Source: an uncultured Thalassovita sp.
GTDB taxonomy: Bacteria > Bacteroidota > Bacteroidia > Cytophagales > Flammeovirgaceae
Length of the DNA: 33,575 bases
Direction: 5' to 3'
Assembly: GCA_937129345.1 (NCBI GenBank)
Contig: CAKZMZ010000311.1
Coordinates: 1-33,575 of the forward strand
The translations under genes were made by a program, and so were the position numbers. Shown here piece after piece: positions 8,430 to 29,229 of this stretch (position 1 is the first letter of the stretch; every line of letters starts with the position of its first letter). The notes under the pieces are model-generated. The model made no database searches. It saw only the letters and a program-made list of their open reading frames with translations, and was not told where the DNA came from.

Positions 8430-9620
8430 TTATTGCCCCTGAGTAGAGGAGGAATTAGGAAAAATTCTCACAATTTGTCCAGGGCTTTCCATAGCTACGT
8501 AAATGTAACCATCAGGGCCTTGCTCAACCGCTCTCATCCTGCCCATTGAATCTAATAGTTTTTCTTCATGCACGATCGAACCGCCTTGCACTTCGCATCT
8601 GGCCAAATATCTAAACTTGAGTGAGCCTACCAATAAGTTGTTTTTCCAAGTGGGGTATTTGTCTGAAGCAACGAAGGCCATGCCACAAGGTGCTATGGAA
8701 GGATCCCAATAATGCAATGGTTGCTCCATACCTGCTTTTGCGGTATCTTCTGTTATGATTGTATTATCGTAATTGATGCCATAAGTAATAACCGGCCAAC
8801 CATAGTTCACACCTGGTTTTATTTCATTTACTTCATCGCCACCTTGAGGGCCGTGTTCATGCTCCCAAATGGCACCCGTTTCGGGGTGTTTAGCCAAACC
8901 CTGAGGGTTTCTGTGGCCATAAGAGTAAATAGAAGCTATGGCATCGGGCTCATTTACAAAAGGATTGTCCTCTGGAATTCTGCCATCGTCGTACAAACGG
9001 TGCACTTTTCCGCAGTAGCTTTCTAAAGATTGTGGGTTTTTATCCCTCTCCCCTCTATCTCCTACTGTAATGTACATAAAACCGGCATCGTCAAATTCTA
9101 TTCTACTACCAAAGTGGTGCGACTTGCCCGTAAATGGCTCTGCTTGGAAAATGACTTCTTGCTCTACCAAAGAGTTGCCTTGTAATTTGGCTCTCATAAC
9201 AGCCGTATTGGCTCCACCATCGCCGGGGGCAGAATAAGAAATGTACAACCAACCATTGCTTTCATAGTCTGGATGTAGTCTTACATCTAATAGTCCGCCT
9301 TGGCCTTTGGCAACTACTTCGGGTACGCCCAAAATAGAATCGGGCATCAGTTTGCCTTCTTTTACCATTCTTAGCCTACCGGGCTTTTCAGTTATGAGCA
9401 TGCTTCCATCGGGCAAAAAGGCCATGCCCCAAGGTGATTCAAGCTCTGTGGCTACAGTATCTACTACAAATTTAAGTTTTTCTGATTCTACCACAGCTGC
9501 AGACTCAGAAGGTGCGGTAAAATAAACAGGCTGTTTTGGTTCATTAATAAGAGCAGTATCTTCTCTTGAACATGCTATTAGAAAAAATGTGGCCAATAGC
9601 AAAAAATGTATCTTCTTCAT
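8430..9620 (-). CDS. PQQ-dependent aldose sugar dehydrogenase-like lipoprotein
   Basis: A 396-residue secreted beta-propeller enzyme of the GSDH/YliI type. The N-terminus MKKIHFLLLATFFLIAC is a lipoprotein signal with Cys17 as lipidation site. Propeller signatures include SPWGMAFLPDGSMLITEKPG, HPDYESNGWLYISYS, HFGSRIEFDDAGFMYITVGD, and the hallmark YGHRNPQG and EHGPQGGDEVN around the active-site and Ca/PQQ region. It would oxidise aldose sugars in the periplasm or at the outer membrane and pass electrons to the respiratory chain. PQQ biosynthesis genes are absent here, so cofactor supply is unknown. A -7-like box TACCTTTG lies upstream. Confidence 0.88.
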   Translation of the reverse strand: MKKIHFLLLATFFLIACSREDTALINEPKQPVYFTAPSESAAVVESEKLKFVVDTVATELESPWGMAFLPDGSMLITEKPGRLRMVKEGKLMPDSILGVPEVVAKGQGGLLDVRLHPDYESNGWLYISYSAPGDGGANTAVMRAKLQGNSLVEQEVIFQAEPFTGKSHHFGSRIEFDDAGFMYITVGDRGERDKNPQSLESYCGKVHRLYDDGRIPEDNPFVNEPDAIASIYSYGHRNPQGLAKHPETGAIWEHEHGPQGGDEVNEIKPGVNYGWPVITYGINYDNTIITEDTAKAGMEQPLHYWDPSIAPCGMAFVASDKYPTWKNNLLVGSLKFRYLARCEVQGGSIVHEEKLLDSMGRMRAVEQGPDGYIYVAMESPGQIVRIFPNSSSTQGQ

Positions 9621-9657
9621 TGGTTTCGCTTTAAGGTTAAGCTAATCGTATTTTAAG

Positions 9658-25114: not shown

Positions 25115-25256
25115 AAAAAATATACCGTTATATTGTGGCAATATAGGGCACTCAATAAGTAAATGCCACAACTTTAACCTGCCGATTTTCAATTTCCCGT
25201 AGTATGGGTGAAATATAATTTCATCAAAAAAGAAAATACGGAAACATTAATTATAT

Positions 25257-25291
25257 TTATATGTTACAACATATAATGGTATAACATATAA
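25257..25291 (+). promoter_or_regulatory. Three-half-site operator candidate before the SnoaL-like gene
   Basis: TTATATGTT (25257-25265) and AACATATAA (25268-25276) make a perfect inverted repeat with a 2-bp centre. A third identical half-site, AACATATAA, follows at 25283-25291, 15 bp from its twin, ending 10 bp before the ATG at 25302. The region is A/T-rich, so some symmetry is expected, but 9-bp exact repetition is more than chance would suggest. Confidence 0.45.
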
Positions 25292-25301
25292 ATAAAATCC
25301 T

Positions 25302-25661
25302 ATGAGTACAATTAAAGAAAACGTAGAAGAACTTAACAGCATGATTTTGAACGGCGAAATCTTGCCAGCTTTTGAAAAGTTTTATTCTGACGAAGTAGTG
25401 ATGCAAGACAACGACACAGAGCCAAGAAAAGGAAAGGCCGCTTGCAGAAAATTTGAAGAAGATTTTGTAAACAGCCTTACTGCATTTAGAGGCGCCGAGG
25501 TAAAAAATGTATTGGTGAGCGAAGAAGCAGGTATTGCCGCTATTGAATGGGCATTTGACTACTCGCACAAAGAGTGGGGCGATCGCAACTACACCCAAGT
25601 TGCTGTACAAAGATGGGTAGATGGCAAAATAGTTAGCGAGCAGTTTATGTACAATTCATGA
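25302..25661 (+). CDS. SnoaL-like / NTF2-fold protein
   Basis: A 119-residue soluble protein with the cone-shaped NTF2-like pattern: an N-terminal helix pair with LPAFEKFYSDEVVMQDN, a GKAACRKFEEDFVNSL helix and a C-terminal antiparallel sheet (AIEWAFDYSHKEWGDRNYTQVAVQRWVDGKIVSEQFMY). No catalytic residues can be named. SnoaL-like proteins range from isomerases to ligand binders. It is flanked by an operator-like repeat upstream and a strong terminator downstream, so it appears to be a single-gene unit. Confidence 0.8.
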   Translation: MSTIKENVEELNSMILNGEILPAFEKFYSDEVVMQDNDTEPRKGKAACRKFEEDFVNSLTAFRGAEVKNVLVSEEAGIAAIEWAFDYSHKEWGDRNYTQVAVQRWVDGKIVSEQFMYNS

Positions 25662-25827: not shown

Positions 25828-25861
25828 TTTGTTCGAAGAAACGAACGATTTTATATTTTTG
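25828..25861 (+). promoter_or_regulatory. Promoter TTTG-N22-TATTTTTG with inverted repeat between the boxes
   Basis: TTTG at 25828-25831 and TATTTTTG at 25854-25861 match the Bacteroidota -33/-7 pattern with 22 bp between them. Between the boxes GTTCG (25831-25835) and CGAAC (25842-25846) form an inverted repeat with a 6-bp spacer, where a repressor would block polymerase. Transcription should start near 25867, 10 bp before the HYC gene. Confidence 0.55.
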
Positions 25862-25877: not shown

Positions 25878-26288
25878 ATGAAAAACACATTGGCCATATC
25901 ATTAGCTGTTTTCTACTGTCTCATTTCAATGGGAATGGGTCTACATTTACACTTTTGCGGTAGTAAAGTAGCAGATGTAGCCTTATATGCAGAAGGTGAC
26001 ACAGATAGATGTTGCCCAACTGATACAGATAGCCCTACAGAAGATTGTTGTCATAACGAAGCAATCATATTTCAATCGCAGATTGAAAATTTACCAAATA
26101 TAAAAGAGGTTGCTTTTACATCCCAAACTGTTAAAGCAGTTATAAAACCAAAAGTAAGATTTAACCTTGAAGATTTGCTCTTAGGGCATGTTGAACAAGA
26201 AAAATCCCTTAAACCTTTCCCACCACCTAAACAACTTTCGGGAAAATCATTCAGGATTGTATGTAAATCCTTAGTCTTCTACGCGTAA
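25878..26288 (+). CDS. HYC_CC_PP family small exported protein
   Basis: A 136-residue protein with an N-terminal hydrophobic signal or anchor (residues 4-21). It carries the elements that name this Bacteroidota family: LHLHFC (His23, His25, Cys27), two vicinal cysteine pairs (Cys45-Cys46 and Cys57-Cys58, the second followed by His59) and a proline cluster near residue 113 (FPPPK). The His/Cys pattern suggests binding of a soft metal at the cell envelope. Family function is not established. It is the first gene of the HYC/HMA/TonB series, downstream of an operator-containing promoter. Confidence 0.78.
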   Translation: MKNTLAISLAVFYCLISMGMGLHLHFCGSKVADVALYAEGDTDRCCPTDTDSPTEDCCHNEAIIFQSQIENLPNIKEVAFTSQTVKAVIKPKVRFNLEDLLLGHVEQEKSLKPFPPPKQLSGKSFRIVCKSLVFYA

Positions 26289-26291
26289 TAA

Positions 26292-26416
26292 TTGATGATT
26301 TCTAAGCTGATTTGATCCACTGTGCTTTATGCTTTGTAAAGCATAAAATTTCTTTTCACAAAGAATTTTTGGGTCAGCTATTCAAAAATTTAATCCATCT
26401 AAAAAGAAATCATCAA
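26292..26416 (+). ncRNA. Candidate structured RNA element between HYC and HMA genes
   Basis: The 130-bp gap folds on paper into a multi-branch structure. P1 is a perfect 12-bp stem, TTGATGATTTCT (26292-26303) with AGAAATCATCAA (26405-26416). P2 is AGCTGA (26305-26310) with TCAGCT (26374-26379). Inside lie hairpin P3, TTTATGCTTT with AAAGCATAAA (26326-26347, tiny 2-nt centre so the innermost pairs would open), and P4, TTCTTT with AAAGAA (26350-26365). P1 ends 2 nt before the HMA start codon, so it would hide the A-rich initiation region. It matches no riboswitch class I know. Pairing was found by eye and not by energy calculation. Confidence 0.5.
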
Positions 26417-26418
26417 AA

Positions 26419-26775
26419 ATGAAAAATATATATAAAATCCTATTGGTTGCTGTGGCTTTTTTAGCCATCTCAAATGTTCAAGCTCAAACCCAAAAAACAG
26501 TTTCAGAAGAAGTGCAAGTAACGGGTGTTTGTAAAATGTGCAAGGAGCGCATAGAGAATGCTGCCCTAGAAGTGAAAGGAGTTAAAATGGCAACATGGAA
26601 GCCTTCTACCCAAAAGCTGAAGGTGTACTTCAACACAAAAAAAACCGATCTGGTAAAAATCCAAGAAGGCATAGCCAAAGTAGGCCACGATACCGAAGCG
26701 GTTAAAGCCAAGGATGAAGACTACAAGCAATTGCCAGATTGCTGCCTTTACAGAGACGGAGTAGAAGTACATTGA
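26419..26775 (+). CDS. Exported heavy-metal-associated (HMA) domain protein
   Basis: A 118-residue protein with a signal peptide (MKNIYKILLVAVAFLAISNVQAQ). An HMA fold follows, with the metal-binding loop GVCKMCKERIE, Cys38-x-x-Cys41, then the KGVKMATWKPSTQKLKVYF strand. The usual Met before the first Cys is replaced (G-V-C). A vicinal pair, Cys108-Cys109 (LPDCCLYRD), lies near the C-terminus. The domain would carry Cu(I) or a similar soft metal in the periplasm. It lies between the HYC gene and the TonB receptor, and its start region is covered by the candidate RNA stem. Confidence 0.88.
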   Translation: MKNIYKILLVAVAFLAISNVQAQTQKTVSEEVQVTGVCKMCKERIENAALEVKGVKMATWKPSTQKLKVYFNTKKTDLVKIQEGIAKVGHDTEAVKAKDEDYKQLPDCCLYRDGVEVH

Positions 26776-26799: not shown

Positions 26800-29064
26800 A
26801 TGAAATATATATCATTATCAATATGCCTATTGATGACTGTAGTAACATCTGGCCTTTGGGCACAGAATACTACAGAAATTAACGGGCAAGTGGTGGAGTT
26901 GAAAGAAGATGGCAAAAAGGTGCCATTAACAGGGGCAAGTGTTTATTGGTTGGGTACTACTAAAGGGTCGGCTACCGATCCAGATGGAAATTTTAAGCTT
27001 AAAACCATTCCACAGACAGATAAATTAGTTATCAGTTTTGTAGGTTTTCGAAGTGATACAATAACCGCATCTACGAGTTCTGGGCCAATACTCATTGCCT
27101 TACAGAGCGACGAAACCCTTGAAGAAGTAACCGTAACCCATGAGCAAAAAAGTACAACTTTCTCTTTTACAAGTTCATTAAAAATTGAAGAGGTGAACGA
27201 GAAAGAGCTGTTGAAAGCAGCTTGTTGCAACCTTTCTGAAAGTTTTGAGACACTACCAAGTGTTGACGTCTCTTTTACAGATGCAGTAACGGGTGTACGA
27301 CAGATACAAATGTTGGGGCTAGCCGGGCCTTACACGCAAATTACACGCGAAAATATGCCTAATGTGCGTGGTCTTTCTGCCAACTATGGCCTTACCTACA
27401 CCCCGGGCACTTGGGTAGATGGCATGCAGCTTATTAAAGGAGTTGGTTCTGTAGTGAATGGCTTTGAGAGCATTGCAGGGCAAATTAATGTGGAGTTGAG
27501 AAAACCAGAAGAGGCAGATGCTTTATATTTTAACTCCTATGTAAACGAAATGGGCCGCATGGAAGGCAATCTAAATTTGGCTACTGATATTAAAAACACA
27601 GATTGGTCAACTGCCTTACTATTGCATACCTCGCACATGCCCTTCGAAAATGACAGAAATAGTGATGGATTTCTTGATAATACACTCTATAATGATTTTA
27701 TAGGGCTCAATAGATGGAAGTACATTGGCGCCAATGGACTAATGGCGCAGTTTGGTGTAAAATTTACCAATCTTAGCAAAACAGGTGGGCAAGTGGGTTT
27801 TGAAAGAGGTACTGAAATAGATCCGATGAGTCCCCAAAATAGCCTTTGGGGCATGGAATCTAACACCCGTAGAATAGAAGGCTGGGCGAAAATCGGAAAA
27901 GTCTTTATAGATATGCCTTGGAAGAGCTATGGCTTGCAACTTGCTGCAACGGCGCATCAACAAGACGATGTTTTTGGCTTGAGAAACTACTCGGGAAAAC
28001 AGACTTCTCTGTATGCCAATTTTGTGTATCAGAGCATCTTCTGGAATACCAACCACAAATTTAAAACAGGGCTGAGTTGGATGTATGACAACTATGAGGA
28101 GCAACTGCTTACCGATAGTTACGATCGAGTTGAGTCTGTGCCGGGTGCTTTCTTTGAATATACCTTCGAGCCTTCTGACAAAGTTTCGGCAGTTGCTGGC
28201 CTAAGAACAGATTACCACAATCTTTTTGGCTTTTTTGCAACGCCAAGAGCACAAATCCGTTATGCACCTTCTTTAAATACAGTATTTAGGGTTTCGGGTG
28301 GTCGCGGACAAAGAACGGCCAACCTACTAGCTGAAAATAGAAACTTACTGGCAAGCGCCCGTAATTTTGTAATTGAATCGAACAGTACCGATACACCCTA
28401 TGGCTTAGATGCTGAGGTAGCTTGGAACTATGGTGTTAATTTAACACAGTACCTCACTTTACTGGACAGAGAGGCTTCTTTGAGTGTAGACTTTTATCGT
28501 ACTGACTTCCAAAACCAAATTGTAGTAGATTTAGACCGTAATACGCAAGCAGTACACTTTTACAATTTAGAAGGCGAATCATTTTCTAATAGCTTACAGC
28601 TGCAAGCCGATTGGGAAATACTACCAAGGTTGGATGTGCGCTTGGCCTACCGTTGGCTAGACGTGAAAACTACTTACAGCGAACAGCTTTTAGAAAAGCC
28701 ATTGGTTTCTGAACACAGGGCTTTTGGTAATTTGGCCTATGCCACCAATAAAAATTGGAAATTTGATGTGACTCTAAATTGGCAGGGTAGTCGTAGGTTG
28801 CCAGATACACGAAGCAATCCTGAACAGTATCGCTTAACTGAGCGATCGCCAAATTTTTATACGCTAAACTGGCAAGTATCCAAAGCTTGGGGGCGAACAG
28901 AAATTTATCTAGGAATGGAAAACGCACTTAACTTTAGGCAAGATAACCCCATCTTGGCAAGTGCCCAACCCTTTTCCCCCTTCTTTGATAGTACCATGGT
29001 TTGGGGGCCCATTTTTGGGCGAAATACTTATGCAGGTCTTAGGTATAGAATTGGTAGAGATTGA
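26800..29064 (+). CDS. TonB-dependent receptor of the HYC/HMA metal module
   Basis: A 754-residue outer-membrane receptor. A TTG two codons upstream (26794) is a weaker start. The signal peptide ends near LWAQ. A CarbopepD-regulatory domain (about 25-110) has GKKVPLTGASVYWLGTTKGS. The plug contains Cys142-Cys143 in KAACCNLSESFETLPSVDVS, then TGVRQIQMLGL and the GVGSVVNGFESIAGQINVEL block. The barrel ends with YAGLRYRIGRD. No STN domain is seen. The CCNLSESFE segment recurs in Bacteroidota receptors that neighbour HMA proteins, and its Cys pair probably touches metal. Copper is the leading candidate; zinc or nickel are possible. Confidence 0.9.
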   Translation: MKYISLSICLLMTVVTSGLWAQNTTEINGQVVELKEDGKKVPLTGASVYWLGTTKGSATDPDGNFKLKTIPQTDKLVISFVGFRSDTITASTSSGPILIALQSDETLEEVTVTHEQKSTTFSFTSSLKIEEVNEKELLKAACCNLSESFETLPSVDVSFTDAVTGVRQIQMLGLAGPYTQITRENMPNVRGLSANYGLTYTPGTWVDGMQLIKGVGSVVNGFESIAGQINVELRKPEEADALYFNSYVNEMGRMEGNLNLATDIKNTDWSTALLLHTSHMPFENDRNSDGFLDNTLYNDFIGLNRWKYIGANGLMAQFGVKFTNLSKTGGQVGFERGTEIDPMSPQNSLWGMESNTRRIEGWAKIGKVFIDMPWKSYGLQLAATAHQQDDVFGLRNYSGKQTSLYANFVYQSIFWNTNHKFKTGLSWMYDNYEEQLLTDSYDRVESVPGAFFEYTFEPSDKVSAVAGLRTDYHNLFGFFATPRAQIRYAPSLNTVFRVSGGRGQRTANLLAENRNLLASARNFVIESNSTDTPYGLDAEVAWNYGVNLTQYLTLLDREASLSVDFYRTDFQNQIVVDLDRNTQAVHFYNLEGESFSNSLQLQADWEILPRLDVRLAYRWLDVKTTYSEQLLEKPLVSEHRAFGNLAYATNKNWKFDVTLNWQGSRRLPDTRSNPEQYRLTERSPNFYTLNWQVSKAWGRTEIYLGMENALNFRQDNPILASAQPFSPFFDSTMVWGPIFGRNTYAGLRYRIGRD

Positions 29065-29077
29065 ATATCTTCATAAT

Positions 29078-29113
29078 AAAAAAGGCTGCCCGTAGTTAAG
29101 GGCAGCCTTTTTT
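29078..29113 (+). terminator. Rho-independent terminator of the metal module
   Basis: AAAAAAGGCTGCCC (29078-29091) and GGGCAGCCTTTTTT (29100-29113) form a perfect 14-bp stem with an 8-nt loop. It lies 14 bp after the receptor stop and may work in both directions. Confidence 0.93.
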
Positions 29114-29229
29114 AGCAGGCAGAATAACTCTTTACATTTAAAATGCAATTACATCATTTCTGTAGATTTTACTTCTACTGGTAATTTTCTATATTAAAGC
29201 AATCATCAATCTTAACTAAACTATGGATT

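Follow-up and report, generated by a model that had tools for sequence, protein, structure and literature searches.

The window analysed here, the whole 33,575-nt stretch of DNA, contains a short operon comprising a promoter motif, a gene of the HYC_CC_PP family (hereafter HYC), a gap of 130 nt, a gene for an HMA-domain protein, a gene for a TonB-dependent receptor and a terminator-like repeat (Table 1). The HYC-HMA gap is occupied by a 125-nt element that a preliminary description had regarded as an ordered multi-stem structure hiding the HMA start, with possible metal- or temperature-dependent control. This raises the question of whether the element is a genuine RNA structure and, if so, what would open it.

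The first gene was assigned to NCBIfam NF047658 (HYC_CC_PP) with a whole-protein score of 41.8 bits against a curated cut-off of 28. Its product has a hydrophobic N-terminus, HFC and CC cysteines, a PPP motif and a C-terminus that reads LVFYA directly before the stop codon. Upstream, TTTG at 25828-25831 and TATTTTTG at 25854-25861 (TAnnTTTG), separated by 22 nt, form a candidate promoter called from sequence alone, in what we take to be the -33/-7 consensus of Bacteroidota. The spacer of this motif also holds a GTTCG-AAGAAA-CGAAC inverted repeat (25831-25846), a candidate operator for a metal regulator. Further upstream, a SnoaL-like gene (25302-25661) is directly preceded by a 13-bp perfect inverted repeat at 25254-25294, a possible operator or leader hairpin. 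The receptor start was taken as ATG 26800, with TTG 26794 as a possible alternative.

Table 1. Features of the HYC-HMA-receptor operon and of the element in its first gap (window coordinates).
Feature	Position	Strand	Evidence
Bacteroidota-type promoter motif upstream of HYC	25828-25861	+	Read from sequence
HYC_CC_PP gene, 136 aa	25878-26288	+	NF047658 match, C-terminal anatomy
HYC stop codon, predicted ribosome pause site	26286-26288	+	Maximum of block slide in the model, edge just beyond stop
P1 5' arm, TTGATGATTTCT	26292-26303	+	Inverted-repeat search, pairing probabilities
P2 5' arm, AGCTGA, alternative inner stem	26305-26310	+	Pairing probability ~0.7
Inner hairpin 1, 26321-26330 with 26336-26345	26321-26345	+	Minimum-energy fold
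Inner hairpin 2, TTCTTT/AAAGAA	26350-26365	+	Minimum-energy fold, repeat search, pairing probabilities
P2 3' arm, TCAGCT	26374-26379	+	Pairing probability ~0.7
P1 3' arm, AGAAATCATCAA, over region just upstream of HMA start	26405-26416	+	Repeat, opening-cost and pairing computations
HMA-domain protein, 118 aa, masked gene	26419-26775	+	PF00403, 28.0 bits, cut-off 24.8
TonB-dependent receptor, carboxypeptidase-like N-terminal domain	26800-29064	+	PF13715 and PF07715
Terminator-like perfect inverted repeat, operon end	29077-29114	+	Repeat of at least 14 bp, sequence

The closing stem P1 had been described exactly. It is a perfect 12-bp pairing around 101 nt, with a 5' arm that begins 3 nt after the stop of HYC and a 3' arm that stops 2 nt short of the HMA ATG (26419). 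Its mean pairing probability was 0.97 in local context, and it was similarly stable when the whole HYC-HMA stretch was folded. The inner structure is less settled. The nested AGCTGA/TCAGCT stem P2 is present, but it competes with a rival register and does not appear in the minimum-energy fold. Both internal hairpins that had been noted exist, and P2 and these hairpins form partly as alternatives. A 9-bp hairpin register at 26326-26347 was rejected (probability ~0.03); the hairpin of the minimum-energy fold is the one listed in Table 1. Comparison of the folding energy with that of shuffled sequence, one of the checks that had been proposed, gave -31.4 kcal/mol for the 125-nt element (z = -4.64), and none of 200 shuffles folded equally well. 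Of 3000 shuffles, 5 produced a perfect inverted repeat of at least 10 bp that reached across 110 nt or more of the element. Since the element had been chosen from 33.6 kb for its repeat, these statistics alone are merely suggestive, and it is the comparative evidence that establishes the structure. Covariance models of Rfam 15 gave no match to a known riboswitch or cis-regulatory RNA within the gap (E up to 5). A search for further copies of the element in the genome found none, hence it is not a repeat family or MITE.

We gathered HMA genes across the order and the class and compared their HYC-HMA gaps. These gaps were mostly unrelated in sequence, and several had a helix joining their first and last bases. 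For a wider set, a local HYC profile retrieved 215 HYC genes, which were reduced to 105 divergent representatives with the window left out; the genes downstream of HYC in this set include ones for HMA proteins, TonB receptors and, judged by their N-termini, RND pumps. Because composition after a stop codon differs from that before a start codon, within-gap shuffling alone was replaced as the test by cross-pairing, in which the 5' end of one gap is paired with the 3' end of another and positional composition is preserved. The HYC-HMA gaps gathered first already paired with themselves in excess of this control. The stop-to-start pairing score across the 105 loci was 13.66 for self-pairing versus 11.21 for cross-pairing (permutation z 10.4, 0 of 10,000). 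Strong end-to-end stems were found at 23 of the 105 loci, versus 1.66 expected from cross-pairing; the other 82, the majority, fell below the strong-stem threshold and lack a perfect end-to-end stem. As controls we took 238 ordinary co-directional gaps lying in these regions, of which 6 passed the same threshold. On inspection, four of these six followed HYC genes, three located before TonB receptors and one before HMA, and their removal left 2 strong stems in 234 control gaps. This ties the signal to HYC rather than to HMA.

When windows were scanned on both sides, the excess was highest between the first 15 nt after the stop codon and the last 15 nt before the ATG, and second highest when this pre-ATG window was set against the final 15 nt of HYC. 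In the 23 strong cases the helices start 0-7 nt after the stop and finish 0-13 nt before the ATG. What is general is this outer pairing alone, for the inner stems differ from one lineage to another. The ordered multi-stem architecture that had been proposed needs correction in this respect, and P1 is the part that matters.

Several individual loci deserve mention. HYC genes before RND-type genes (L247, L237, L214, L035 and L240) also have stop-to-start stems, of 15 bp in L247, and the control therefore extends beyond HMA or TonB operons. The HYC homolog at L119 (~9563-9628) has no PP near its end, yet 9 bp of stop-to-start stem are present, and PP may thus be dispensable. In some Flavobacteriaceae (L054, L056, L061) HMA directly follows a receptor-type gene with no HYC between them, which shows that gene order in the operon is variable. 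On a contig labelled Phycisphaeraceae (L055, PAIY01000082.1), which is probably mis-binned, HYC and HMA form a Bacteroidota-like pair whose stop-to-start stem has 13 bp.

Covariation was examined in an alignment (A2) of congeners of one genus in which HYC precedes a TonB receptor, aligned without reference to structure. This genus belongs to a different lineage from the window. The species of the window has no close relative that shares its gap, and in its one congener a different gene follows HYC, so the covariation is that of counterpart stems and bears on P1 indirectly. RNAalifold recovered the same stop-to-start stem from A2, with 94.8% of cells paired and double-sided changes in 5 of 10 pairs, whereas shuffled and slid controls were far lower. 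In a second alignment, of long-gap congeners (A1), P1 was nearly invariant and hence carries little information. A strand test comparing G-U with A-C mismatches gave 7 versus 3, where composition predicts near equality; these counts are too few for use. The search for covariation and conserved stems in homologous gaps that the preliminary description had called for thus favored the stem.

To quantify masking, we calculated how much energy it costs to unfold the region around the next start (-15 to +6), both in free mRNA and in mRNA blocked to +12 past the HYC stop, the block being a static occlusion with an assumed footprint. The block lowered this cost by a mean of 3.80 kcal/mol at 101 HYC loci versus -0.04 kcal/mol in 210 control gaps (Mann-Whitney p 1.7e-26) and 0.41 kcal/mol in shuffled gaps, and the gain was at least 3 kcal/mol at 58 of the 101 loci. 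For the HMA start in the window, the cost fell from 9.5 to 2.7 kcal/mol, a gain of 6.78 kcal/mol that none of 500 shuffles reached. The proposal that the element masks the HMA start is strongly supported. A 27-nt block slid along the mRNA had no effect over most of the HYC gene; the gain rose from about -12, was optimal with the block edge +6 to +18 past the stop and fell off beyond, and controls were flat. This optimum is where the leading edge of a ribosome would lie if its A site were at the HYC stop codon. The recurrence of the arrangement across Bacteroidota suggests that pausing of a ribosome at the end of HYC uncovers the next gene and switches it on. A pause at the PP motif was considered as an alternative opener and discarded: a ribosome halted there, ~16 codons earlier, is out of reach of the stem in the block model, and a block at that site had no effect.

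The HYC protein itself fits this picture. Residues -3 to -1 have the highest conservation (information) of the last 32, with a tripeptide consensus of F/L/Y, then L/R/Y, then I/G/A, right at the stop; residues conserved directly before the stop are likewise the mark of stop-codon arrest peptides. The distance from PP to the C-terminal end is nearly fixed, mostly 15-17 residues across the family and 20 in the window. Six HYC proteins had no match to Pfam families, including DUF2946 (E up to 10). Literature searches confined to articles without their supplementary files found none that names HYC_CC_PP and none that describes such a stop-to-start structure.

Taken together, we consider it probable that HYC exerts cis control in the manner of CutF and SecM, with metal-binding nascent HYC pausing its ribosome at the stop codon and so unmasking HMA and the TonB receptor. 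HYC would be a cysteine-containing upstream ORF, putatively exported to judge from its hydrophobic N-terminus, that controls the genes behind it. In free mRNA, the ~12 nt after the HYC stop would pair with the region before the next start, and HMA and the receptor would initiate poorly. Once a ribosome is held with its A site on the HYC stop, the 5' arm would be covered, P1 would open and the downstream start would become accessible. We infer that HYC stalls the ribosome through its conserved C-terminal tripeptide at the stop and the PP ~16 residues back in the exit tunnel, and that metal bound by the exposed HYC/CC cysteines would lengthen or shorten the pause. The response to metal may turn the operon on, as with CutF, or off, as with CruR. 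Bacteroidia ribosomes do not use Shine-Dalgarno (SD) sites, and reduced structure at the start region is one determinant of initiation (PMC9976891); a stem over the start should therefore be an effective lock. The preliminary description had placed metal control in the RNA element, but nothing points to the RNA itself as the metal sensor. The stem keeps its register relative to the stop codon of HYC, which makes the nascent protein, together with its ribosome, the most likely sensor.

The same geometry is what would be expected of a reinitiation bridge, in which stem formation places the HYC stop only a few nucleotides from the HMA start, so that a terminating ribosome hops and restarts. The stem would then promote expression, and sensing would be unnecessary. 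Few bases lie outside the stem between stop and start (5 in the window, and small numbers in the strong cases), which fits this reading. However, the 3' arm covers the 30S landing region and raises its opening cost, at the very site where Bacteroidia initiation prefers low structure (PMC9976891), and a bridge leaves the conserved HYC C-terminus unexplained; we regard it as unlikely. Transcription attenuation, with a terminator or Rho site in the gap whose use is governed by translation of HYC, has a precedent in CruR, a functional analogue upstream of a TonB receptor that acts through Rho (PMC9426467). A hairpin with a T-run can also be read in the gaps of some relatives (e.g. L013, L099, L125). 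Against this, a terminator-like site was looked for in the gap of the window and none was found, and the conserved feature stops at the start codon, for which a terminator has no need. We regard attenuation as improbable.

P1 might have arisen by chance in an A/T-rich gap, given that the window has three inverted repeats of at least 12 bp within 140 nt, or it might be a DNA-level repeat element. The element is single-copy in its genome, though, and the data from relatives (recurrence with different sequences, covariation and register) make this account very improbable. A multi-stem fold before a metal gene also invites the idea of an RNA-only switch, either a metal riboswitch or an RNA thermometer. 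This is the least credible of the alternatives, given the lack of Rfam matches in the gap, inner stems that are not conserved between lineages and a register that follows the upstream stop codon. The temperature-dependent control that had been suggested is also not supported by the model, in which P1 hardly melts from 10 to 45 C and is still 95% formed at 45 C.

Beyond this locus, we lean, with less assurance, towards the view that HYC_CC_PP proteins are metal-sensing arrest peptides throughout the phylum. Each would stall at its own stop codon and, through the stop-to-start stem, switch the SD-independent translation of the metal gene behind it, whether for an HMA protein, a TonB receptor or RND efflux. 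If true, this would give a function to an unstudied family named from its motifs alone, and would bring metal sensing by nascent chains, with a defined RNA lock, into a phylum that ignores SD sites. The model is specific as to where stalling should occur, namely at the HYC stop codon, and stop-to-start complementarity would be a general sequence signature with which to find other upstream ORFs that control the next gene.

The principle has precedents. In SecM-secA, MifM-yidC2 and VemP, ribosome stalling unfolds a stem in the intergenic region and thereby frees the next start from its mask (summarised in PMC9973294). These systems sense translocation, have no metal site and differ in sequence from HYC. 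Within Bacteroidota, the stop-codon arrest peptides uA_NSP-stop, uDF_NAP-stop and uDF_DGMK-stop precede secA or secDF, and toeprinting showed for two of them that the ribosome arrests when the stop codon occupies its A site, as is likely for the third (PMC10987492). They share with HYC the phylum and conserved residues right at the stop codon. In contrast to HYC, they have other C-terminal motifs and are linked to protein localization rather than to metals; where such peptides lie upstream of secA, secDF or yidC, HYC is followed by HMA, TonB receptor or RND genes. CruR of Bordetella pertussis is, like HYC, a cysteine-bearing upstream ORF at the head of a TonB-dependent-receptor operon, and its C-terminal motif is required in cis (PMC9426467). 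CruR ends in RAPP, matches DUF2946 and works through Rho-dependent termination, whereas RAPP is absent from HYC C-termini, HYC has no Pfam match and its gap carries a stem that covers the start.

The closest parallel is CutF of Rhodobacter capsulatus, in which cysteine and proline motifs and an intergenic stem control cutO by copper (PMC9973294). Each system has a short protein, exported in CutF and putatively so in HYC, that bears metal-type cysteines and, close to its end, a proline motif; a metal gene follows on the same strand, with an intergenic stem over the start region of that gene. With 136 aa and a gap of 130 nt, HYC is within the size and spacing used for CutF-like proteins (<150 aa, same-strand gene within 1000 nt), and the stem over the start is predicted in the window by opening costs of 9.5 kcal/mol free and 2.7 kcal/mol blocked. 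The window PP, 20 residues from the end, is outside the CutF-like filter of 15 residues (PMC9973294). Unlike that of CutF, the HYC stem ties the stop of the first gene to the start of the second across 101 nt and has no SD to shield, and we found no sequence relation between HYC and CutF. Gap lengths of CutF-like loci have been reported for other phyla (PMC9973294), and we found no report of conserved stems there. CutF-like proteins have already been listed for Bacteroidota (PMC9973294); what is new here is a stop-anchored long-range mask on SD-less starts, together with a predicted stall at the stop codon.
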